From positions 1 through 64,000 of the forward strand of contig JAPSLB010000002.1 in NCBI GenBank assembly GCA_031181145.1: a stretch of DNA of 64,000 nt, given 5' to 3'. The position numbers and the translations under genes were made by a program. Below, in pieces: positions 52,768 to 62,911 of this stretch (within the stretch, counting starts at the first letter, position 1; each line of letters opens with the position of its first letter). Source of the stretch: Microvirga sp. GTDB lineage: Bacteria > Pseudomonadota > Alphaproteobacteria > Rhizobiales > Beijerinckiaceae. The notes beneath the pieces are model-generated. The model saw only the letters and a list, made by a program, of their open reading frames with translations, searched no databases and was not told where the DNA came from.

Positions 52768-54318
52768 TTGGCGCAATTCGAATCCAAGCCGCAGATCTTG
52801 CACCGCACAGCCCAACGCGCCCGATATGGTGAACCGATCGAGAGCCCGTACGAGGATTCGGACGAACGCTGGACAACCATCGAGGTCGATACACCGGCCC
52901 ACGCGGAAGCCCGTCCGCTCGTGGTCGATCTCGACGGGACTCTGATTGCGTCGGATCTCCTGATCGAGACTGCTTTTTCCGAACTGGGTCGGCGTCCGCA
53001 TTCCCTGATCGAGTTGCTGAGAGTTCTCGCGCGCGGCAAGGCGGCTCTCAAGCACCGGCTCGCGGAGCCTGTCGATTTCGATCCTGGCACCCTCCCCTAC
53101 GATCCGGCAGTCCTCGCCGCCATCAAACAAGCGCGCGCCGACGGGCGACCAGTCTATCTGGCCTCCGCCAGCCATGAGAAGCTGGTCGGCAGGGTTGCCG
53201 GACATCTCGGCCTTTTTGCCGGATGGTTCGCCTCCAACGAAACCACAAATCTCGCCGCCGAGATAAAGGCGGCCCAGCTTGTCGAAGCTTTCGGAGAGGG
53301 CGGCTTCGACTATATCGGCAACGACGCGGCCGACCTGCCGGTCTGGGAGAAAGCCGCACGAACCTTCGCCATCCGAGCTCCGGCCCGGGTCCGGAGGCAA
53401 CTTGCTTTGAAGCGGACCGAAATCGAGCACCTTCCGTGCTCGCGCCCCGACTGGCGAACGTGGGCCAGGATGTTCAGAGTCCACCAATACGCCAAGAACG
53501 CCCTGATTTTCGTCCCGCTGCTGACCTCCCATCTTTTCACGATGGAGGCGCTGACCCAGGCCCTTTTGGCCTTCGTTGCCTTCTCGCTGTGTGCCTCCAG
53601 CATCTACATTCTCAACGATCTCGTGGATCTGCAGGACGACCGCCGGCACCGCAGCAAGTGCAATCGCCCTCTGGCCTGTGGCGCCATTCCGCTGATGCAC
53701 GGCGTCGTCGCGATCCCGATCCTGTTCCTGAGCGCCGTTGCAATCGCATCGATGCTCTCATTTGCGTTTCTTGGTGTCCTGCTCGGCTACTTTGCCTTGA
53801 CGACGGCCTATTCCTTCGCCCTCAAGCGCATGATGATCGTCGACGTGATCACGCTCGCAGGGCTCTATTCGGTGCGAGTGATCGGCGGCGCCGTGGCAAC
53901 AGGGATCATGGTCTCGGAATGGCTCCTGGCCTTCTGCATGATGATCTTCATGTCGCTCGCGCTGATCAAGCGCTATATCGAGCTGGCGGCCCGCCGCGAC
54001 GCCAACCTGCCCGACCCGACCAGCCGGGATTACAAGAACAGCGATCTCGAGATCGTCGCCGCCCTTGCGGCGGGAGCAGGCTTCAATGCGGTGACGATCT
54101 TCACTCTGTACATCTCCAGCGATGCCGTTAACGAACTCTATACGCACCCGCAGATCCTTTGGCTGGTTGGGCCACTGCTGATGTATTGGATCGCACGCGC
54201 CCTGATGCTGGCCAGTCGCCGCCTCATGGACGACGATCCTGTGGTGTTCGCGATCAAGGACAAAGTCAGCCTGGTCACGGCCGGTGCGGTGGCCCTCCTC
54301 GTCCTTGCGGCCATTTGA
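52768..54318 (+). CDS. HAD phosphatase-UbiA prenyltransferase fusion (decaprenyl-phosphate phosphoribosyltransferase-like)
   Basis: Protein of 516 residues with two parts. Residues 45-215 are a HAD phosphatase domain with motif I DLDGT (54-58), a Ser motif (LASASHE) and motif IV YIGNDAADLP. Residues 225-516 are a UbiA membrane domain with NDLVDLQDD (283-291), KxNRP after it, and the second motif YSFALKRMMIVDVITLAGLYSVRVIGG. That UbiA pattern matches Rv3806c/NoeC-type enzymes that join phosphoribose to polyprenyl phosphate. The fused HAD could remove the 5-phosphate (inference). The start is a TTG nine nt after GAGGGGAG; no ATG lies near. First gene of the operon. Confidence 0.88.
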   Translation: MAQFESKPQILHRTAQRARYGEPIESPYEDSDERWTTIEVDTPAHAEARPLVVDLDGTLIASDLLIETAFSELGRRPHSLIELLRVLARGKAALKHRLAEPVDFDPGTLPYDPAVLAAIKQARADGRPVYLASASHEKLVGRVAGHLGLFAGWFASNETTNLAAEIKAAQLVEAFGEGGFDYIGNDAADLPVWEKAARTFAIRAPARVRRQLALKRTEIEHLPCSRPDWRTWARMFRVHQYAKNALIFVPLLTSHLFTMEALTQALLAFVAFSLCASSIYILNDLVDLQDDRRHRSKCNRPLACGAIPLMHGVVAIPILFLSAVAIASMLSFAFLGVLLGYFALTTAYSFALKRMMIVDVITLAGLYSVRVIGGAVATGIMVSEWLLAFCMMIFMSLALIKRYIELAARRDANLPDPTSRDYKNSDLEIVAALAAGAGFNAVTIFTLYISSDAVNELYTHPQILWLVGPLLMYWIARALMLASRRLMDDDPVVFAIKDKVSLVTAGAVALLVLAAI

Positions 54319-54338: not shown

Positions 54339-54779
54339 TTGGACAACATGGGCTCCATCCGCCGGACCGGCTCACCCGCTCCGGCAATGTTCATCCGGTA
54401 CGTGCTGTTTGCCGTTCTTGCGACGCTGGCGAACCTGCTCACCCAGGAGGCGAGCATCCGCCTCGTTCCAGGAGCGCCTTTGAGCTTCTCCATCCTCATG
54501 GGCACCGCTGCCGGCTTCATCCTCAAATATGCACTGGACAAAAAATGGGTGTTCGAGGACACCTATAGCGGCCACCGGCAGGAATTGCACAAGATCGGGC
54601 TTTACGGCGCCTTCAGCGTCCTGACCACGCTGGTCTTCTGGGGCTTCGAGATCGCCTTCTGGACGATTTGGCAGACCGATGTCGCCAAGTATACCGGTGC
54701 CGTGCTGGGCCTTGCCATCGGCTATGCCGCCAAGTTCCTGCTCGATCGGAATTTCGTGTTCAAGGAGCGTCAGGCATGA
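54339..54779 (+). CDS. GtrA-family membrane protein
   Basis: Inner-membrane protein of about 146 residues with four helices (MFIRYVLFAVLATLANLLTQEASI, LSFSILMGTAAGFILKYALDKKWVF, GAFSVLTTLVFWGFEIAF, GLAIGYAAKFLLDRNFVF). The K(Y)xLDKKWVF and FLLDRNFVF repeats are GtrA hallmarks. The family moves or presents polyprenyl-linked sugars; the mycobacterial relative Rv3789 is encoded beside dprE1. I start at a TTG after GGAGG (54328-54332); ATG at 54321 or 54348 are alternatives. Its stop overlaps the next gene. Confidence 0.82.
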   Translation: MDNMGSIRRTGSPAPAMFIRYVLFAVLATLANLLTQEASIRLVPGAPLSFSILMGTAAGFILKYALDKKWVFEDTYSGHRQELHKIGLYGAFSVLTTLVFWGFEIAFWTIWQTDVAKYTGAVLGLAIGYAAKFLLDRNFVFKERQA

Positions 54780-56110
54780 CGGAGCTCTCCGGGTGGGGAC
54801 GCTACCCTTGGCATCCGTCAGATGTCCTGTCCCCCTCATCCCCCCCCGCAGTACCGCCTCTCATGACCTCACATACAGGTCTGGTGGCACGCGGGAACGG
54901 GCGTGCCTACGGCGATGCCGCCATCGGAGAGCGGGTGACGCTCGTCACCCGGCGGCTCGACCGTATCCGCGCCTTCGACCATGCGACGGGCCGGGTTCGC
55001 GTGGAGGCGGGCCTGCTTCTCGCGGACCTCCTGGACGTGATGGTGCCGAAGGGGTTCTTCCCCCCCGTGGTGCCGGGCACGAAGTTCGTCACCATCGGCG
55101 GGATGATCGCCTCGGACGTGCACGGCAAGAACCACCACCGGGACGGCGGCTTTGGCGACCACGTGGAGTCCTTGACCCTCGCCTTGCCTGATGGCGGTAT
55201 CGCCGAATGCTCTTCGGCGGAGAACAGCGATCTCTTCCGCGCCACGATCGGCGGAATGGGGCTGACGGGAACGATCCTCGAAGCTACCTTTCGCCTGAGG
55301 CCCGTCGAAACCGGATGGATGCGCCAGCAGACGATCGTCGCGTCCTGTCTCGACGAGGCGCTCGAGGGGCTGCGGGCCAGCAGCGACGCCACCTACTCGG
55401 TGGCATGGATCGATTGCCTGGCCAAAGGCCCATCCCTCGGCCGCTCTCTGATTTATGTCGCGGAGCACGCCACGCTCCGGGATCTGGACGCCCTGCGGCC
55501 TGGAGCAAAAGCCTTTTTCCCGTCGCGCTCGGGGCGGCTTTCGATTCCGCTTGACCTCCCGCCTTTTGCCCTCAACCGGCACTCTGTGGCCGCGTTCAAC
55601 GAGATGTACTTCCGGGTCGGGGCGATGAAGGCCGGATATCCCTTTCTCGTGCACTGGAATCCATACTTCTTCCCGCTCGACGGCATCGGCGACTGGAACC
55701 GCATCTATGGCCGCAGAGGCTTCCTCCAGTACCAGTGCGTCATCCCGACGGCTCATGCGGGACCCGCCCTGAGCGGCCTGCTCGACCGGATCTCACAGCG
55801 GGGCCTTGCCTCCTTCCTGGCCGTTCTCAAGCAGATGGGCCCAAGCCATGGCGATCTGTCCTTTCCGATGGAGGGCTTCACCCTCGCTCTCGACCTGCCC
55901 GTGAGCGAGGGCGTCTTCCCGCTGCTCGACGATCTCGACAGGATAGTGGTCGAAGCCGGGGGGCGGCTCTATCTCGCCAAGGATGCGCGACAATCGCCTT
56001 CTACTTTCGAAGCCGGCTACTCGGGATTGCCTCGGTTCCGCGACCTGCGGCGGGCGATCGGAGCAACCGGCCGGATCTCCTCCCGCTTATCTGCACGACT
56101 TGGAATCTGA
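54776..56110 (+). CDS. DprE1-like FAD-dependent oxidase (decaprenylphosphoryl-ribose 2'-oxidase family)
   Basis: Flavoprotein of 444 residues with an FAD-binding type 4 domain (RGNGRAYGDAAIGE, PGTKFVTIGGMIASDVHGKNHH, FGDHVESLTLALPDGG). In the mycobacterial pathway this enzyme oxidises the 2'-OH of polyprenylphosphoryl ribose to a keto intermediate. His-116 in HGKNHH, position 371 and Lys-402 in AKDAR keep the spacing of mycobacterial His-132, Cys-387 and Lys-418. Position 371 is Ala, not Cys. ATG overlaps the GtrA stop (ATGA) and AAGGAG is upstream. It pairs with the next gene for epimerisation to arabinose. Confidence 0.88.
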   Translation: MTELSGWGRYPWHPSDVLSPSSPPAVPPLMTSHTGLVARGNGRAYGDAAIGERVTLVTRRLDRIRAFDHATGRVRVEAGLLLADLLDVMVPKGFFPPVVPGTKFVTIGGMIASDVHGKNHHRDGGFGDHVESLTLALPDGGIAECSSAENSDLFRATIGGMGLTGTILEATFRLRPVETGWMRQQTIVASCLDEALEGLRASSDATYSVAWIDCLAKGPSLGRSLIYVAEHATLRDLDALRPGAKAFFPSRSGRLSIPLDLPPFALNRHSVAAFNEMYFRVGAMKAGYPFLVHWNPYFFPLDGIGDWNRIYGRRGFLQYQCVIPTAHAGPALSGLLDRISQRGLASFLAVLKQMGPSHGDLSFPMEGFTLALDLPVSEGVFPLLDDLDRIVVEAGGRLYLAKDARQSPSTFEAGYSGLPRFRDLRRAIGATGRISSRLSARLGI

Positions 56111-56853
56111 TGAACGCATCTCGAACCCTCCTTCTCGTCGGCGGCACGTCGGACATCGGACGCGCCACCGCGCTCTGCTATGCGCAGGCCGGCTGGCGCG
56201 TGCTGCTAGCGGCGCGCCGAGAGGATGACGCAAAGCGCAACGCCGACGACATCGCGGTCCGGACCGGCGCTGAAGTCACCGTCCACCGGCTCGATATTCT
56301 CGAGACGAGCCGCTTTCAGACGTTCGTCGACGGGCTCCCGCAACTCCCCGATACGGTAGTGTGCGTGGTCGGCGAGCTCGGCGACCAGCAGCGGGGACAG
56401 ACGGATCTCTCCCACGCAACGCAGATCCTGCGCACCAATTTCGAAGGCCCCGCCCTACTGCTCGGGGCGTTCGCGGAACGCTTTCTCGAACGCGGCTCAG
56501 GCACCATCGTCGGTGTGAGCTCGGTGGCGGGCGACCGTGGGCGCGGCTCGAACTATCTGTATGGGGCTGCCAAAGCCGGATTTACGGCTTTCCTGTCGGG
56601 ACTGCGCAACCGCCTTGCTCCGGCGGGACTGCGCGTCGTCACGGTCAAGCCCGGTTTCGTGCGCACGCAGATGACCGCCGGGATGAAACTTCCTCCCGTT
56701 CTTACGGCAGAGGCCGAGGAAGTCGGTCGGAGAATCTTCACGGCCGCCGAGAACAGGAAGAGCGATGTCATTTACGTGCGACCGGTCTGGCGACCTGTGA
56801 TGATGATCATAGACTCTATTCCCGAACGCATCTTCAAACGCCTTCGCCTCTAG
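56110..56853 (+). CDS. DprE2-like short-chain reductase (decaprenylphosphoryl-2-keto-ribose reductase family)
   Basis: Cytoplasmic SDR protein of 247 residues. The nucleotide site is LLLVGGTSDIGRATA (residues 7-21) and the catalytic residues are Ser-137/138 and Tyr-151 with Lys-155 (SSVAGDRGRGSNYLYGAAKAG). The GGTSDIG form and the C-terminal YVRPVWRPVMMIIDSIPERIFKRLRL tail resemble DprE2. It would reduce the DprE1 keto product to the arabinose form. Its ATG overlaps the DprE1 stop codon (TGATG), and it ends 18 nt before the first membrane paralogue. Confidence 0.87.
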   Translation: MNASRTLLLVGGTSDIGRATALCYAQAGWRVLLAARREDDAKRNADDIAVRTGAEVTVHRLDILETSRFQTFVDGLPQLPDTVVCVVGELGDQQRGQTDLSHATQILRTNFEGPALLLGAFAERFLERGSGTIVGVSSVAGDRGRGSNYLYGAAKAGFTAFLSGLRNRLAPAGLRVVTVKPGFVRTQMTAGMKLPPVLTAEAEEVGRRIFTAAENRKSDVIYVRPVWRPVMMIIDSIPERIFKRLRL

Positions 56854-56871: not shown

Positions 56872-58488
56872 ATGATCGCTTTGTCGGATCGCCGCATACC
56901 CGTTGGGGCCTTCCTCCTCGTAGTGGCAGCAACCTGCGCCCTCCTCCTTTCCCTTCCGGGTCAAACCGTCACGACGCGCTACCTGACCGATCTCCTTCTC
57001 ATTCTCGATGGGGCCTATCGCGTCACCGCGGGCCAAATTCCGAACCAGGATTTTCACACCCCGCTGGGTCCGTTGGCTTACTATCTTCCTGCCGCCGGAT
57101 ATGTTCTCTCTGGCAGCTTGGGCAGCGCCATGCCGGCCGCCATGGCCCTCGTCACACTGGCGCTGTCGATACCGATGCTGCACGTGCTGGGCTCGCGGCT
57201 GCACCCTTTCATCGCGCTTCTGCTCGGGGTGTTCCTGTTGATGATTCTCGCCGTCCCCATCAATCTGGGCGAGGGTATTACGGCGCTGACCTTCGCCAAG
57301 TTCTACAATCGGATCGGATGGGCGGCTTTGGGCACTCTGCTCGTCATGTACCTGCGCCCACGGCAGTTGCGCGGGAGGCAGGATCTTCTGGACATTCTCT
57401 GTGCCGCGGCCCTGACCCTGGCGATGCTCTATACCAAGCTCACCTATGGCATCGTAGCCGTTTCCTTCCTCGTGTTCATGCTGACCGATCGACAGCAGAG
57501 ACGCTGGGTGCTTCCTGCTCTCGGGCTGATCGTCGTCTCCTGCCTGGCAATCGAGATCATCTGGCAATCGTCGCTGTTCTATCTCAACGATTTGTGGTTG
57601 GCTCTCGACGTCGGAGGGCGCCTGCGCGGCACATGGGGGCAGATCGCGGACCACATCCTGGTCAACATGACCGATTACGTCCTGCTCGGCCTGTTCGCGA
57701 GCCTTTCGCTCAGCCGAACCCGCAGTGTTCGCGAGGGGTTCTTTTATCTCTTCTGCGCCGTCACAGGATTTCTCATCGTCAACCAGAATTTCCAGGCTTG
57801 GGGCATCATCGCTCTTCATGCGGCGGCAGCGGTGGCGGCAGAAACCATTCTACGGCAGGAGGAGAAAATCGAACCGGATGCCCGGGCAGGAGCATGGTCC
57901 ACATCAACCGGCACCCGGCTGCTCTTCGTGGCGCTCGTTCTACCGACCATCGTGCATTGCTCCGCCGCATTGGGATTGCATATGATCTCGGCGAGCACAC
58001 GGGCCGGCCAATCCCTTGACCTGCCTCATCTCGAACGGATCCGCCTTGCCAACCTGTGGACATGGGGCGATTACGGTACGGCCAATCGATATCTCACCGC
58101 CTTGCGCGACGGTGTGGAGGCTCTTTCCGAGATCGGCCTGGACGGCAGAAAAGTCCTCGCCCTCGACAGGAGCAACCCCTTTCCCATGATTCTCGGCGCG
58201 CCCCCGCCCAGCGGCGATCTGCCTTGGCTGCAATGGGAACGTACGCTCAATGCTGCCGCCTTCATTCCCGCCGAGACCCTGCTGGCGGAGGCCGATGTGG
58301 TGATGGAGCCCAGGTTCCCTGACAGGAGCTTCACCGAGAATTCAGAGCTCTCGGGTCTGAGCGCACTATACGGCTCATACATCGCCAGCCACTTCGAGAA
58401 CGTGCGTGAGACGGATCATTGGAGAATCCGCCGCCGTCGTCTGGGAGCCGAGCCAAAGGTCGGCATGAATTCTGCGGATCCCTCATGA
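56872..58488 (+). CDS. Polytopic membrane protein, tandem paralogue 1 (candidate GT-C glycosyltransferase)
   Basis: Inner-membrane protein of 538 residues with about ten to eleven helices in the first 380 residues and a soluble C-terminal domain. A conserved block after helix 1, TDLLLILDGAYRVTAGQIPNQDFHTPLGPLAYYLPA, places an Asp-Phe-His-Thr motif in the first outer loop, as GT-C enzymes do with their catalytic acid. A second block, FAKFYNRIGWAALG, is shared with the next two genes. The C-terminal part carries LQWERTLN. I infer a transferase using the polyprenyl-phosphate sugar made by the upstream genes; no family match could be confirmed. GGGAG precedes the ATG. Confidence 0.8.
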   Translation: MIALSDRRIPVGAFLLVVAATCALLLSLPGQTVTTRYLTDLLLILDGAYRVTAGQIPNQDFHTPLGPLAYYLPAAGYVLSGSLGSAMPAAMALVTLALSIPMLHVLGSRLHPFIALLLGVFLLMILAVPINLGEGITALTFAKFYNRIGWAALGTLLVMYLRPRQLRGRQDLLDILCAAALTLAMLYTKLTYGIVAVSFLVFMLTDRQQRRWVLPALGLIVVSCLAIEIIWQSSLFYLNDLWLALDVGGRLRGTWGQIADHILVNMTDYVLLGLFASLSLSRTRSVREGFFYLFCAVTGFLIVNQNFQAWGIIALHAAAAVAAETILRQEEKIEPDARAGAWSTSTGTRLLFVALVLPTIVHCSAALGLHMISASTRAGQSLDLPHLERIRLANLWTWGDYGTANRYLTALRDGVEALSEIGLDGRKVLALDRSNPFPMILGAPPPSGDLPWLQWERTLNAAAFIPAETLLAEADVVMEPRFPDRSFTENSELSGLSALYGSYIASHFENVRETDHWRIRRRRLGAEPKVGMNSADPS

Positions 58489-60110
58489 ACACGCAACCGG
58501 ACGGGATGCGGTCGTCGGCAGGAGCCGTTCTGGTTGGCGCAGCTCTTTTTGCATGTCTCCTGGCAGGTCCAGGCCTGACGATTACCACATCCTATGTGAA
58601 CGACCTTTTCATTTTCCTTGACGGCGCTCACAGGATCGCGTGGGGACAGATCCCGAACCGGGATTTTCATACGGCTCTTGGCCCCCTTTCCTTCTACATT
58701 CCTGCGCTCGGCTACTGGATTTCCGGCACCCTGGGTGGAGCCATGCCGTACGGCATGGCCGTGGTCACGCTCTTCCTGGCTTTCCCCATAGCGTATGTGA
58801 TCGGATCGCGCCTGCAGCCGGTCATCGGCGTTCCTTACGGGCTCTTCTTGCTTCTTGTCCTGGCCGTGCCTGCGAATCTCGGCGAAAGCGTCACGGCGCT
58901 GTCCTTTGCCATGTTCTACAATCGGATCGGGTGGGCCGCCCTGGGCGCTCTTCTCATCATGTACCTGCGGCCGATACGGCCGATACGATGGCAGAACACC
59001 TTCGACGCCCTTTGCGCGACAGTGCTGATCGCGGTGATGCTCTATACGAAGATCACCTATGGTCTCGTGGCGCTCGCTTTTCTGGTCTTCCTGCTGCTCG
59101 ATGCGCGGCAGCGCCGGTGGGTTGCATCCGCACTTGCTTTGACGCTTGTGGGCGGTCTTGTCGTCGAGACTTTCTGGCAATCCACGTCAGCCTATTTCGA
59201 GGATCTCGCTCTGACGGGTCGAGTGAGTGGATCACGAGGCATCGTCGATCTGACTTCGGCCCTCCTCCGGCACTTGGCGGATCTTTGTCTCCTCGCCATT
59301 TTCGCGTTTCTCGTGCTCTGGCGGACCCGCAGACTGCAGGACCTTCTGTTCTTCGGGTTCTGCACGCTTCCCGGCCTCGTTATCCAAAGCCAGAACTCTC
59401 AGCCTTGGGGCGTTCTGACGATCCATGCCGGCGCGGCCGTTGGGGCGCAGATGCTCTTGCGATCGTCGGCAAACCCTTCTCTCCGCAGCGAGAAACTCCC
59501 GCCATTCGGCTCAGGAGCCCCTCTCCTGCTCATGGCGCTGATCCTGCCGACGCTTCTCCACTGCCTCATGACTCTGGGATTTCATACTACCTTGGCCCTC
59601 TCGCGCTCAGGTCAGGCATTCGATCTGCCCCGGTTCGGAGAGATTCGGCTCATTGCGCCATGGCTGTCGAGTGAAAGAACGATGATGCACACGTATCTCG
59701 CAAGCATAGAGGAGGGTGCCCGTGTCCTGGAAAGCCTTCCGGAGAAGCCCAGGAAGGTGTCTGTTCTGGACTTCTCGAACCCCTTCTCGGCGGGGCTCGA
59801 TCTTCCACCTCCGCGCGGCGACAGCGCCTGGCTCCACTGGGGGCGCAACGTCAATGATGTTCATTTCATCCATCCGGGGAAACTGCTTGCCAATGTGGAA
59901 ATACTGATGCTTCCCAAATGGGGCATCAACAACATCCCGTTGAGAACCCTGTATCAGACCTACATCGACGTGACCTTCGAACGGATCCATGATGACGACG
60001 ATTGGACCGTCTACCGCCGCAAGAACCAGGAAGTTGCCGCCAAGGCCCCATCCCCGGGGAACACGAGTCCCGCTTCACGGTTGAGGCTGGGGGGTGGAAC
60101 TCGACCATGA
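58485..60110 (+). CDS. Polytopic membrane protein, tandem paralogue 2 (candidate GT-C glycosyltransferase)
   Basis: Inner-membrane protein of 541 residues, clearly homologous to its neighbours. It shares VNDLFIFLDGAHRIAWGQIPNRDFHTALGPLSFYIPALGYW, GESVTALSFAMFYNRIGWAALGALLIMYLRP and MLYTKITYGLVALAFLVFLLLDARQRRW. The C-terminal outer domain has SVLDFSNPFSAGL, WLHWGRNVND and ILMLPKWGI. The start overlaps the stop of paralogue 1 by four bases (ATGA), and a longer in-frame extension was rejected. Role as in paralogue 1, inferred. Confidence 0.82.
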   Translation: MNTQPDGMRSSAGAVLVGAALFACLLAGPGLTITTSYVNDLFIFLDGAHRIAWGQIPNRDFHTALGPLSFYIPALGYWISGTLGGAMPYGMAVVTLFLAFPIAYVIGSRLQPVIGVPYGLFLLLVLAVPANLGESVTALSFAMFYNRIGWAALGALLIMYLRPIRPIRWQNTFDALCATVLIAVMLYTKITYGLVALAFLVFLLLDARQRRWVASALALTLVGGLVVETFWQSTSAYFEDLALTGRVSGSRGIVDLTSALLRHLADLCLLAIFAFLVLWRTRRLQDLLFFGFCTLPGLVIQSQNSQPWGVLTIHAGAAVGAQMLLRSSANPSLRSEKLPPFGSGAPLLLMALILPTLLHCLMTLGFHTTLALSRSGQAFDLPRFGEIRLIAPWLSSERTMMHTYLASIEEGARVLESLPEKPRKVSVLDFSNPFSAGLDLPPPRGDSAWLHWGRNVNDVHFIHPGKLLANVEILMLPKWGINNIPLRTLYQTYIDVTFERIHDDDDWTVYRRKNQEVAAKAPSPGNTSPASRLRLGGGTRP

Positions 60111-61735
60111 CGGTTTGGACGCAACGCCCAGCACATGTCGCGCTGCTGGTCATTATCGTGGCTGCACTCTGCGCCCTCATGCTCGCATGGCCGGGCCAGA
60201 CGGTCACGACCAAATATGTCAACGATCTCTTCATCTTTCTCGATGGCGTTCACCGCATCGACTCGGGCCAGATCCCGAACCGGGACTTTCATACCGCTCT
60301 AGGCCCCCTCGTCTATTATGCCCCTGCCCTGGGATATTGGCTGACCGGCACGTTCGGCGGAGCTATGCCGGTCGGAATGGCGCTGATCGTTGCAGCCCTG
60401 GCAGTGCCGGCATCCCATGTCCTCAGCTCGCGCTTGCGGCCGGCGCTCGCCATTCCTCTTGGCATCTACCTCATCCTGGTGGCCGCCGTGCCCATCAATC
60501 TGGGCGAGAGTATCAGTGCCCTCTCCTTTGCGATGTTCTACAACCGCATCGGCTGGGCTGCCCTCGGTCTCCTGCTGGTGATGCATCTTCGCCCGGAGCA
60601 TTCCGGACGGCTCCAGCACGGGCTCGACGCCATATGTGCAGCCTTCCTGATCATCCTGATGCTCTATATCAAGATCAGTTACGGAATCGTCGGCATCGGC
60701 TTTCTGATCCTTCTGCTCCTCGATGCCCGTCAGCGTCTCTGGTCCATGAGCGCGCTCGGCCTCATCGCAATCGGCTGCATCTTCGTCGAGCTCTTCTGGG
60801 GTGGGACGAAGGCACACATTGCCGACCTTCTCCTCGCAGGAGAGGTCAGCGGCAGCCTGAAGCCTGTCGACCAGATCGCGCAGCTTCTCCTCAGGAACCT
60901 TCCCGAGTTCACCCTCTTCCTCCTCTTTGCTGGCCTGGCTCTCTGGCGCACCAGGAGCGTCCGTGATCTCCTGTTCTTCGGCTTTAGCGCCGGATCGGGA
61001 TTTCTGCTGATCCTGCAGAACTTTCAAAATTCGGGCATCGTCACCCTGATGGCGGCCGCCGCTGTGGCGGTGGAGCTCATGGCGCGCAGCGACCGGCCGG
61101 CTTCCGAAGTCCGGCGCAGGTCCCTGACGGCTGGCGCGCAGCTTCTGCTTTTCGCCCTCTTGTTGCCGGGAAGCCTTCAACATGCGGCGGCCCTCGGGCT
61201 GCATACAGGGTTGGCAAGCCTGGAACGCGGGCAAGCCGCACCGTTGCCGAAATTCGGAGAGGTCAGGCTCGTCCAGCTCTGGAACGACGGAAACTACCCT
61301 GCATTCAGCCGCTATTTCGCCAGCATCGCAGACGGCGCGCGTGCTTTGTCCGTTCTGGAGCAGGAAACGGATCACGTGCTCGTTCTGGATTTCGTCGGCC
61401 CCTTCTCCGCGGGCCTTGGCCTTGAAGCTCCAACCGGAGACAGCACCTGGCATCACTGGGGCCGCACGGTCAACGAGCACAGCTTCCTTCCGGCCGAGAC
61501 GCTGTTTCATGATGTGCGAATCGTCATGGAGCCGAAATGGCCTATCGACGGCGCAACGACCGCGGGTCTCAAAGCGATCTACGCTGAACACATCAATGAT
61601 CATTTCGAGCTTGCGGGAGAAACCGCCGACTGGCGGGTCTATGTCTTGCGTGCTCCGCCAGCCGAAACAGTCAGTCGCTCAAACGATTCGGACCGCGACG
61701 GCGAGGAGGACGAGATCCTCCCGAGCGGCGGCTAG
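60107..61735 (+). CDS. Polytopic membrane protein, tandem paralogue 3 (candidate GT-C glycosyltransferase)
   Basis: Inner-membrane protein of 542 residues, closest to paralogue 2: VNDLFIFLDGVHRIDSGQIPNRDFHTALGPLVYYAPALGYWLTG, GESISALSFAMFYNRIGWAALG, LLLLDARQRLW, and in the C-terminal domain VLDFVGPFSAGLGLEAPTGDSTWHHWGRTVNE and VMEPKWPID. The start overlaps the stop of paralogue 2 by four bases. It is the last gene of the operon; its stop codon lies three bases from the stop of the convergent GT87-like gene, leaving no room for a normal terminator. Confidence 0.82.
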   Translation: MTVWTQRPAHVALLVIIVAALCALMLAWPGQTVTTKYVNDLFIFLDGVHRIDSGQIPNRDFHTALGPLVYYAPALGYWLTGTFGGAMPVGMALIVAALAVPASHVLSSRLRPALAIPLGIYLILVAAVPINLGESISALSFAMFYNRIGWAALGLLLVMHLRPEHSGRLQHGLDAICAAFLIILMLYIKISYGIVGIGFLILLLLDARQRLWSMSALGLIAIGCIFVELFWGGTKAHIADLLLAGEVSGSLKPVDQIAQLLLRNLPEFTLFLLFAGLALWRTRSVRDLLFFGFSAGSGFLLILQNFQNSGIVTLMAAAAVAVELMARSDRPASEVRRRSLTAGAQLLLFALLLPGSLQHAAALGLHTGLASLERGQAAPLPKFGEVRLVQLWNDGNYPAFSRYFASIADGARALSVLEQETDHVLVLDFVGPFSAGLGLEAPTGDSTWHHWGRTVNEHSFLPAETLFHDVRIVMEPKWPIDGATTAGLKAIYAEHINDHFELAGETADWRVYVLRAPPAETVSRSNDSDRDGEEDEILPSGG

Positions 61736-61738
61736 AAT

Positions 61739-62911
61739 TCACTTCCAGGATGCTCGATGAACCCGGCCCATGCGGAACGTTGAAACACTCACAGGCGAGA
61801 TCTCGTTCCGCCGACGCACCTCCGCCACGGCAAGGATGGCGAGACAAAGTACCATGGCCCAACCATAGATCGAGCCGATGGTGAGCTGGATCCAAGCGGG
61901 CTTCGTGAACTGGGCAATGACAAAGGGAACTGGCACGATGAGCAGCAGGGCAACGAGGCGCATCCCAGGTTTGTGCCAGTAGCTCAGGAAGACCGGTAGA
62001 AGAAATAGAGTGTAGTGGATCCAGCCCAGTGGCGAGGCGAGAAGCGACGCAACCAGGGCAATGGCACTCACGGCCATGGCATTCGGCCGACGCCAGAAGG
62101 CCCATGCAGCCAGAAACACGAGAAGCGCAAGACTGGCCATCACTCCGAGAAGCGGTACGCCGGCGCGAGCCGCGAAACCTGCAAAGGAGGTGTTGGTGAG
62201 GAAGAACGCTCGCTCCTTGTCGGAGGCGATCAGCTCGAACCATTGCCGGTAGACATCGAGGCCATAAATGAACAGCGGGATGGTACTGATGACGACAGCC
62301 GTGGCCAACGCCGCAAACGCCGGCCGCCAATAGCCCGAAAGAAGCAGCAGAACCGGCCATACAAGGAAATTCGGTTTCATCGAGACTAGAAGCCCGATGA
62401 GGATTCCGGCAACCCAAACCCCTCCGCGCTCGAGAAGAAGCCATCCAGCAATGGCCGTGAAGGCGAGCGGCAGGTAGATCTGCCCCAGAAAAAGAGTATC
62501 CCAGAACCCGGCGAGGGCAAAAGCCCATATGGCCATGATCGGAGCCTGGGGGCTCCGGAAGCGCCATGCAAGGAGGAGAACGGCAGCAATGTAGAATGCG
62601 ATCGAGACCCAACGCCAGGTTTCGAAGGCTGCGCGCGGATCCGGAGCATCAAGGAGCTGGAACAGAAGCGCCGAGATGGGCGGGTTGAGATTGGGGTTCC
62701 AGGATTCGAAGCCTGGCAGTTTCACATGCAATGTCAGTGGATAGACGCCGTAAGGATTCAATCCTTCAGCCGCGGCTCGGCCGGAAGCGACGAACGAACC
62801 AAAATCCCATAGGCCTCTATCATGAGCGATGCGTGGGAATTCCGCCATGATCGCAAGAAACGACAGAACCAGCACAACGAGATTGACGATCCAGCGCGTC
62901 GATGCCGCCAT
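61739..62911 (-). CDS. DUF2029 / GT87-like membrane glycosyltransferase
   Basis: Inner-membrane protein of 390 residues with about ten helices. Family segments are WDFGSFVASGRAAAEGLNPYGVY (Asp early in the first outer loop), SWNPNLNPPISALLFQLL, FALAGFWDTLFLGQIYLPL, GILIGLLVSMKPNFLVWPVLLLL and LLASPLGWIHYTLFLLPVFLSYW. This is the DUF2029 (GT87) pattern, which includes polyprenol-phosphate-mannose-dependent transferases such as PimE. Start at MAASTRW. It is convergent with the arabinan-type operon and may add another sugar to the same polymer (inference). Confidence 0.82.
   Translation of the reverse strand: MAASTRWIVNLVVLVLSFLAIMAEFPRIAHDRGLWDFGSFVASGRAAAEGLNPYGVYPLTLHVKLPGFESWNPNLNPPISALLFQLLDAPDPRAAFETWRWVSIAFYIAAVLLLAWRFRSPQAPIMAIWAFALAGFWDTLFLGQIYLPLAFTAIAGWLLLERGGVWVAGILIGLLVSMKPNFLVWPVLLLLSGYWRPAFAALATAVVISTIPLFIYGLDVYRQWFELIASDKERAFFLTNTSFAGFAARAGVPLLGVMASLALLVFLAAWAFWRRPNAMAVSAIALVASLLASPLGWIHYTLFLLPVFLSYWHKPGMRLVALLLIVPVPFVIAQFTKPAWIQLTIGSIYGWAMVLCLAILAVAEVRRRNEISPVSVSTFRMGRVHRASWK

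Follow-up and report, generated by a model that had tools for sequence, protein, structure and literature searches.

What do three tandem membrane proteins do when they are encoded directly behind a set of genes for an arabinose donor, in a bacterium far removed from mycobacteria? The question is raised by a stretch of 64,000 nucleotides from Microvirga sp. (contig JAPSLB010000002.1, positions 1 to 64,000; the whole stretch is hereafter called the window), where three consecutive genes, here named A, B and C, follow genes of the UbiA, GtrA, DprE1 and DprE2 types. We consider it likely that A, B and C are periplasmic D-arabinofuranosyltransferases that use polyprenyl-phosphate beta-D-arabinofuranose, each probably forming a different linkage. 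The case is built on observed features, namely the paralogy of the three proteins, the predicted fold of A and C, the operon layout, the linkage to donor genes and the ordered orthology. If it is correct, the few enzymes that handle D-arabinofuranose would gain a family with the glycosyltransferase C (GT-C) fold that has no Pfam, NCBIfam or solved-structure profile, ordered arabinofuranosyltransferase sets would exist outside mycobacteria, and a D-arabinofuranose glycan would be predicted in nodulating rhizobia and their relatives.

Three Paralogs With a Predicted GT-C Fold

All three genes lie on the forward strand. Paralog A is located at 56872-58488 and encodes a protein of 538 residues, B is located at 58485-60110 (541 residues, ATG at 58485) and C at 60107-61735 (542 residues), while both the A/B and the B/C junctions are ATGA overlaps. 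BLASTP showed 46% identity between A and B over 518 residues (E-value = 6e-144), 47% between A and C over 519 residues (E-value = 3e-151) and 52% between B and C over 501 residues (E-value = 6e-159), a likeness that far exceeds chance. The first-pass annotation, made from the DNA letters, had described adjacent paralogs of about 540 residues sharing two motifs, and both motifs are indeed present in each protein: FYNRIGWAALG is common to all three, and PN(Q/R)DFHT reads PNQDFHT in A and PNRDFHT in B and C. Searching the whole host genome (4.56 Mb, 93 contigs) with A returned A, B and C and no further copy. Among named loci, the nearest are those of Microvirga makkahensis (86% identity to protein C) and M. 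pakistanensis (84%). Neither A, B and C nor 75 aligned family members matched anything above cut-off in Pfam or NCBIfam, A having a sub-threshold match to DUF6529 in Pfam (17.3 bits against a cut-off of 23.3), and comparison with phage families gave nothing above cut-off either.

Structure models were made for A and C. AlphaFold modeled C from a 112-row alignment with a predicted local distance difference test score (pLDDT) of 93.9 and a predicted template modeling score (pTM) of 0.91, and A from 75 rows with a pLDDT of 92.9 and a pTM of 0.92. Foldseek matched the model of C to seven PDB entries at E ≤ 0.001, all seven of them GT-C enzymes (AftA twice, AftB, ArnT twice, PglB and DPY19), and that of A to four, again all GT-C (AftA twice and ArnT twice); the arabinosyltransferase AftA was the top PDB match of both. 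A GT-C fold is thus predicted for A and C, in agreement with the earlier proposal of GT-C transferases. The soluble C-terminal domain expected after the last membrane helix is present in both models, and in that of C it is mixed alpha/beta. A fold search of BFVD gave no match at E ≤ 0.001.

Linkage to a Predicted Donor Pathway

The donor genes of the window are all on the forward strand. A fusion of a HAD phosphatase to UbiA, a predicted polyprenyl-phosphate phosphoribosyl synthase and 5'-phosphatase, is located at 52768-54318 (start codon uncertain) and scores 62 bits with Pfam UbiA, 35.6 bits with HAD and 652 bits with NF006088. The UbiA portion matches 8j8j, a decaprenyl-phosphate phosphoribosyltransferase of solved structure (E-value = 2.1e-25), and keeps the NDxxDxxxD motif, the residues of which were probed by mutation in ORF15 of Citrobacter youngae (PMC11127046). 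A GtrA-family protein, the predicted flippase of the lipid-linked pentose, is encoded at 54387-54779 (ATG 54387, TGA 54777; PF04138, 39.9 bits; NF037976, 157 bits) and its gene overlaps the next one, which encodes a DprE1-like flavin adenine dinucleotide (FAD) oxidase at 54776-56110 (NF053785) that matches PDB DprE1 4aut nearly end to end (E-value = 8.2e-83). A DprE2-like SDR reductase follows at 56110-56853 (ATG at 56110; NF005489, 356 bits with a cut-off of 267). The upstream order UbiA, GtrA, DprE1 and DprE2 given by the first-pass annotation is correct according to these Pfam and NCBIfam matches, and a UbiA-type synthase, a phosphatase and homologues of DprE1 and DprE2, the makings of a polyprenyl-phosphate-arabinofuranose donor pathway, stand together in the window.

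A contig scan led to 67 loci of the family in Microvirga, Rhizobium, Neorhizobium, Pseudorhizobium, Devosia, Paracoccus, Tateyamaria, Roseobacter, Yoonia and others; two peptide patterns served to retrieve them, which under-samples divergent members. After setting aside three distant loci (L099-L101) and one with no family open reading frame (ORF; L102), 63 close loci were retained, 57 of them with at least 4.3 kb of upstream sequence. These 57 are weighted to Microvirga (17), Rhizobium (10) and Tateyamaria (6), and a donor gene was scored wherever it lay in the locus sequence (in L069 these genes are on the other strand). UbiA was found in 56, GtrA in 53, DprE1 in 52, DprE2 in 52 and all four in 52, the complete set occurring at least once in 15 of 18 groups, each a genus or metagenome-assembled genome (MAG) group. 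Four annotated records present the same picture, with UbiA, GtrA, an FAD oxidoreductase and an SDR protein ahead of one, two or three "hypothetical proteins". In a set of 25 same-genus genomes that includes that of the window, a DprE1 match was detected in 9/9 family-positive and 3/16 family-negative ones (Fisher p = 1.1e-4, kinship not corrected). One genome without the family (G017) has a DprE1 homologue (68%), GtrA, DprE2 and UbiA in the vicinity of a GT87 gene and of an ORF of 544 residues that is unclassified. Concerning the class as a whole, a homologue of DprE1 (E ≤ 1e-30) is present in 52 of 385 sampled genomes, and the family was matched only in the window genome and in two others with distant relatives (24-29% identity); by these sequence counts, the donor module is more widespread than the family, which is one uncommon partner of it.

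Ordered Lineages of A, B and C

Evolutionary relationships were studied with a quick LG+G4 tree of 112 rows, comprising the three window rows and family rows, with 26 of 135 family rows left out as truncated or near copies; 20 of its 109 inner branches are open and nine rows carry long-branch warnings. In three-gene loci, the first genes fall in clade A (23/23), the second in clade B (24/24) and the third on the C side (23/23, 21 of them in its main clade). In the Shimodaira-Hasegawa-like approximate likelihood ratio test (SH-aLRT), clade A (26 rows) has a support of 100, clade B (36 rows) of 95, the main C clade (32 rows) of 98 and the C side as a whole (50 rows) of 93. The third-position proteins of L088 and L092 group, on the C side, with single-gene roseobacter and distant rows, and the single-gene roseobacter proteins are likewise placed on that side. 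Proteins labeled "A" by BLAST differ from the tree in two cases, as L061:1167 is in clade B and L100 stands with distant rows.

The tree, the long branches of which are uncertain, suggests that the triplication is old and that its order was preserved across several alphaproteobacterial families. A recent, lineage-specific duplication was rejected, as positions 1, 2 and 3 form separate tree groups across families, and the earlier suggestion that the genes were duplicated in place within one lineage has to be abandoned: A-B-C is an old ordered set that occurs in several families and also on plasmids (32 plasmid records carry the family, 30 of which belong to Rhizobium). Such ordered, old lineages argue for a division of labor, and with three of them maintained separately in several host families, each copy probably has a position or acceptor of its own for the addition of arabinofuranose, on a surface or periplasmic glycan.

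Putative Catalytic Residue, Topology and Proposed Mechanism

In GT-CA enzymes, the essential Asp sits at the tip of juxtamembrane helix 1 (PMC12041299). The models of A and C have a helix at residues 38-52, directly after the first membrane helix, that starts beside D40 (codons 56989-56991 in A, 58602-58604 in B and 60224-60226 in C), so that an acidic residue stands where this rule places it. Position 40 is Asp in 103 of the 112 aligned rows, Glu in seven and Gln in two. The first-pass annotation had instead asked whether the Asp of PN(Q/R)DFHT, D60 (codons 57049-57051, 58662-58664 and 60284-60286), is near the active site. This residue is invariant in 112/112 rows but lies in the loop behind helix 38-52; D40, by its helix-tip position in the models, is more likely the catalytic Asp, and D60 would belong to the donor or acceptor pocket. 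R50, R109, R147 and D174 are also invariant. Two genomes from a different alphaproteobacterial family have relatives of about 600 residues (L134 and L135; 24-29% identity) that keep D40 and D60 and have Ala at position 46, with no donor-gene match within 17 kb of locus sequence.

Eleven membrane helices were assigned by hand. With this topology and the C-terminal domain excluded, cytoplasmic-assigned loops are richer in Lys and Arg than periplasmic-assigned ones in 112/112 rows, as the positive-inside rule requires. Forty-five positions are conserved in at least 93% of rows, and 29 of them belong to periplasmic-assigned segments, 14 to membrane helices and two to cytoplasmic loops; the periplasmic-assigned segments also have the greatest length, and conserved positions are most closely packed in the first loop (14/55).

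From these data we infer the sugar, the topology, the catalytic residue, the split of linkages and the flipping step as follows. UbiA would transfer ribose-5-phosphate from phosphoribosyl pyrophosphate onto the lipid, the fused HAD domain would remove the phosphate, DprE1 and DprE2 would epimerise C2 and GtrA would flip the lipid-linked product. Each GT-C, with about 11 membrane helices and a loop after helix 1 bearing two juxtamembrane helices and the putative catalytic D40, would then transfer the sugar, and its periplasmic C-terminal domain may hold the acceptor. A GT87 neighbor may add a fourth linkage.

Evidence Against the Assignment and Alternative Functions

Several findings weigh against the assignment of A, B and C as D-arabinofuranosyltransferases. 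As for the fold, query-normalised template modeling scores are modest against known GT-Cs, at 0.36-0.46 for C and 0.44-0.50 for A, and the root mean square deviation is 8.5-16 Å over the PDB matches at E ≤ 0.001, which means likeness at fold level, and the sugar cannot be told from a fold match. Furthermore, the 112-row family profile had 0 matches at E ≤ 10 among all PDB chain sequences, hence no sequence-profile link to any solved GT-C, the chains of mycobacterial AftA, AftB, AftD and Emb included, and neither this search nor Pfam detected sequence homology to the Emb, AftA, AftB or AftD families. This lack of any Pfam, NCBIfam or PDB sequence match above cut-off would also suit transport or polymerase/ligase-type membrane proteins of the same pathway, as would a marginal Pfam match to Wzy_C in one of 75 members (E-value = 0.015). 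A non-transferase role is nevertheless highly improbable, considering the GT-C fold of both models, with AftA, ArnT, AftB, AftD and PglB among the best matches, and the fact that loci without GT87 show no other recognised transferase candidate in the conserved part of the cassette.

A second point concerns D40, which is replaced by Glu or Gln in nine rows, all of them clade-A (first-position) proteins outside Microvirga, and is Asp in every clade B and clade C row; A may therefore differ in mechanism or be inactive there. One could accordingly regard B and C as the active transferases and A as a partner or scaffold subunit, and this would fit both the longest end branch of the tree, that of the clade-A protein of L092 (1.19), and the two-gene Rhizobium loci, which hold B and C without A. 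We find it unlikely, since D40 is kept in the A protein of the window and in the aligned Microvirga A proteins, and Glu can still serve as a base.

Thirdly, the donor genes themselves leave some room. The DprE1-like protein scores 402 bits with NF053785, under the cut-off of 500, and the DprE2-like protein 186 bits with NF053786 (DprE2), under the cut-off of 250, so both are homologues rather than certified equivalogs. In addition, 5/57 close loci (L073, L081, L086, L087 and L097) have no local DprE1/DprE2, and one of them also has no UbiA. UbiA is thus linked more often than DprE1 (56/57 against 52/57), and L086 and L097 have UbiA with no GtrA, DprE1 or DprE2 match in the locus, while L073 keeps UbiA and a GtrA match of 29 residues and L087 keeps UbiA, GtrA and a DprE2-like stretch of 102 residues, each beside the transferase. 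These short matches resemble the epimerase loss that separates two serotypes of C. youngae, and GT136 of that species takes both ribofuranose and xylofuranose donors (PMC11127046). Accordingly, the family could consist of pentofuranosyltransferases at least some of which transfer ribofuranose or another pentofuranose, with DprE1 and DprE2 merely widening the donor pool. To us this appears distinctly unlikely: each of the five loci comes from a genome that encodes a DprE1 homologue at another place (43-52% identity), L086, L087 and L097 are MAGs in which local loss could be an assembly fault, and in the window the transferases are immediately preceded by DprE1 and DprE2, which in turn directly follow the donor genes. 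The survey of co-occurrence with DprE1 and UbiA called for at the outset shows tight linkage, the close family being not frequent in genomes without DprE1, as judged from the same-genus genomes and these five loci.

Finally, two distant relatives from MAGs (L099 and L100, 32-34% identity) belong to genomes with no DprE1 match (2/2 tested). The wider superfamily is not arabinose-specific, and arabinose specificity is consequently proposed for the close family only. L099 has a GtrA gene nearby, and its other neighbors resemble nucleotide-sugar genes by eye.

Comparison With Known Systems

The closest described system is that of C. youngae O1/O2 (ORF12 = GT136, ORF14 and ORF15; PMC11127046), a characterised pentofuranose system with a HAD-UbiA protein and a GT-C, which supports the proposed arabinofuranosyltransferase function. 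Common to both, as predicted for the window, are the HAD-UbiA donor synthase, a lipid-linked pentofuranose, a separate flippase and a GT-C acting in the periplasm, in which 11 membrane helices are combined with one domain behind helix 1 and another, also periplasmic, at the C-terminus. They differ in the flippase (GtrA here, MATE-type in C. youngae), in the epimerisation (DprE1/DprE2 against an SDR epimerase), in the number of GT-Cs (three paralogs and GT87 against one) and in the C-terminal domain (mixed alpha/beta against a beta-rich carbohydrate-binding module). The family is set beside GT136/ORF12 by description. According to PMC11127046, arabinofuranose systems with DprE1/DprE2 homologues and systems with several GT-Cs exist as well; the main text of that paper contains no Rhizobium, Paracoccus, Bradyrhizobium or Azorhizobium, and its supplement could contain family members. 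Among the literature matches listed, judged by titles and the starts of abstracts, no such family is described.

Mycobacterial genomes have a GtrA-like gene, DprE1 and DprE2 in this order, followed by a run of GT-Cs. The arrangement in the window mirrors that of the mycobacterial arabinan genes with enzymes of a different sequence family. The proposed donor chemistry is the same as in the mycobacterial machinery (UbiA/Rv3806c, Rv3789, DprE1, DprE2, AftA, EmbA/B/C, AftB, AftC and AftD), whereas the HAD phosphatase is fused to UbiA here and A, B and C have about half the length of mycobacterial Emb. The AftA_N profile matched nothing in the window genome.

Neighboring Genes and Acceptor Candidates

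GT87 is a family of GT-C enzymes that depend on polyprenyl-phosphate sugars, and AftC is one of its members. The GT87-family gene of the window, a candidate fourth GT-C, is located at 61739-62911 on the reverse strand, convergent with C (PF09594, 89.7 bits). Among eight window proteins scanned, it alone matched PF09594, so A, B and C are not members, and hhalign of the family profile against the GT87 profile gave a probability of 0.3%, detecting no sequence kinship. The neighbor is conserved (mean column identity of 66% over 24 rows), and a homologue is present in 34/60 close loci with at least 1.3 kb of downstream sequence. Loci with a homologue belong to Microvirga, Rhizobium, Neorhizobium, Pseudorhizobium, Devosia, Paracoccus and three MAGs; in L088 and L092 it lies upstream.

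Osmoregulated periplasmic glucan is a candidate acceptor in roseobacters, as a homologue of MdoG/OpgG (one typed by Pfam) adjoins the family gene at 13 of the 15 loci of this type. It is the next gene region downstream, about 50-720 bases away, on the same strand in three loci (L070, L073 and L079) and convergent in ten, and identity to the MdoG of L079 splits by arrangement (36-39% against 79-81%). Examples beside a single family gene are the MdoG/OpgG periplasmic glucan gene at L079:10029-11543 and, at L073:10080-13483, one that is followed by a GT2-like gene. MdoG was not found in the roseobacter-type loci L069 and L087, nor in the remaining 52 of the 67 loci. It is present in 19/19 same-genus genomes searched, whether family-positive or not, and hence gives no acceptor signal for the window; the cyclic-glucan family PF06165 was found in none of these 19.

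Taken as a whole, the locus may represent a mobile alphaproteobacterial cassette that moved between genera as a unit, in which four GT-Cs (A, B, C and GT87) would successively build a short D-arabinan with different linkages on a periplasmic or surface glycan, possibly osmoregulated periplasmic glucan in roseobacters, as a counterpart of the mycobacterial arabinan cluster. We advance this wider scenario tentatively and hold it to be possible rather than probable.

Other genes were also recorded around the cassette. On the window contig past position 64000 (L107:3349-15275), five GT4-like transferases, two epimerases, a myo-inositol-1-phosphate synthase and a nucleotidyltransferase are encoded, and related GT4-like genes are near the cassette in 11 Microvirga loci; association of the inositol-phosphate-synthase/GT4 cluster with the family was not significant (7/9 against 4/10, p = 0.17). 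A sulfotransferase and an arylsulfotransferase are located near the roseobacter family gene of L069 (4869-7696) and are likewise annotated near a Tateyamaria plasmid locus. A TMEM260-like GT-C and an AsmA-family gene each recur in 13 roseobacter loci.

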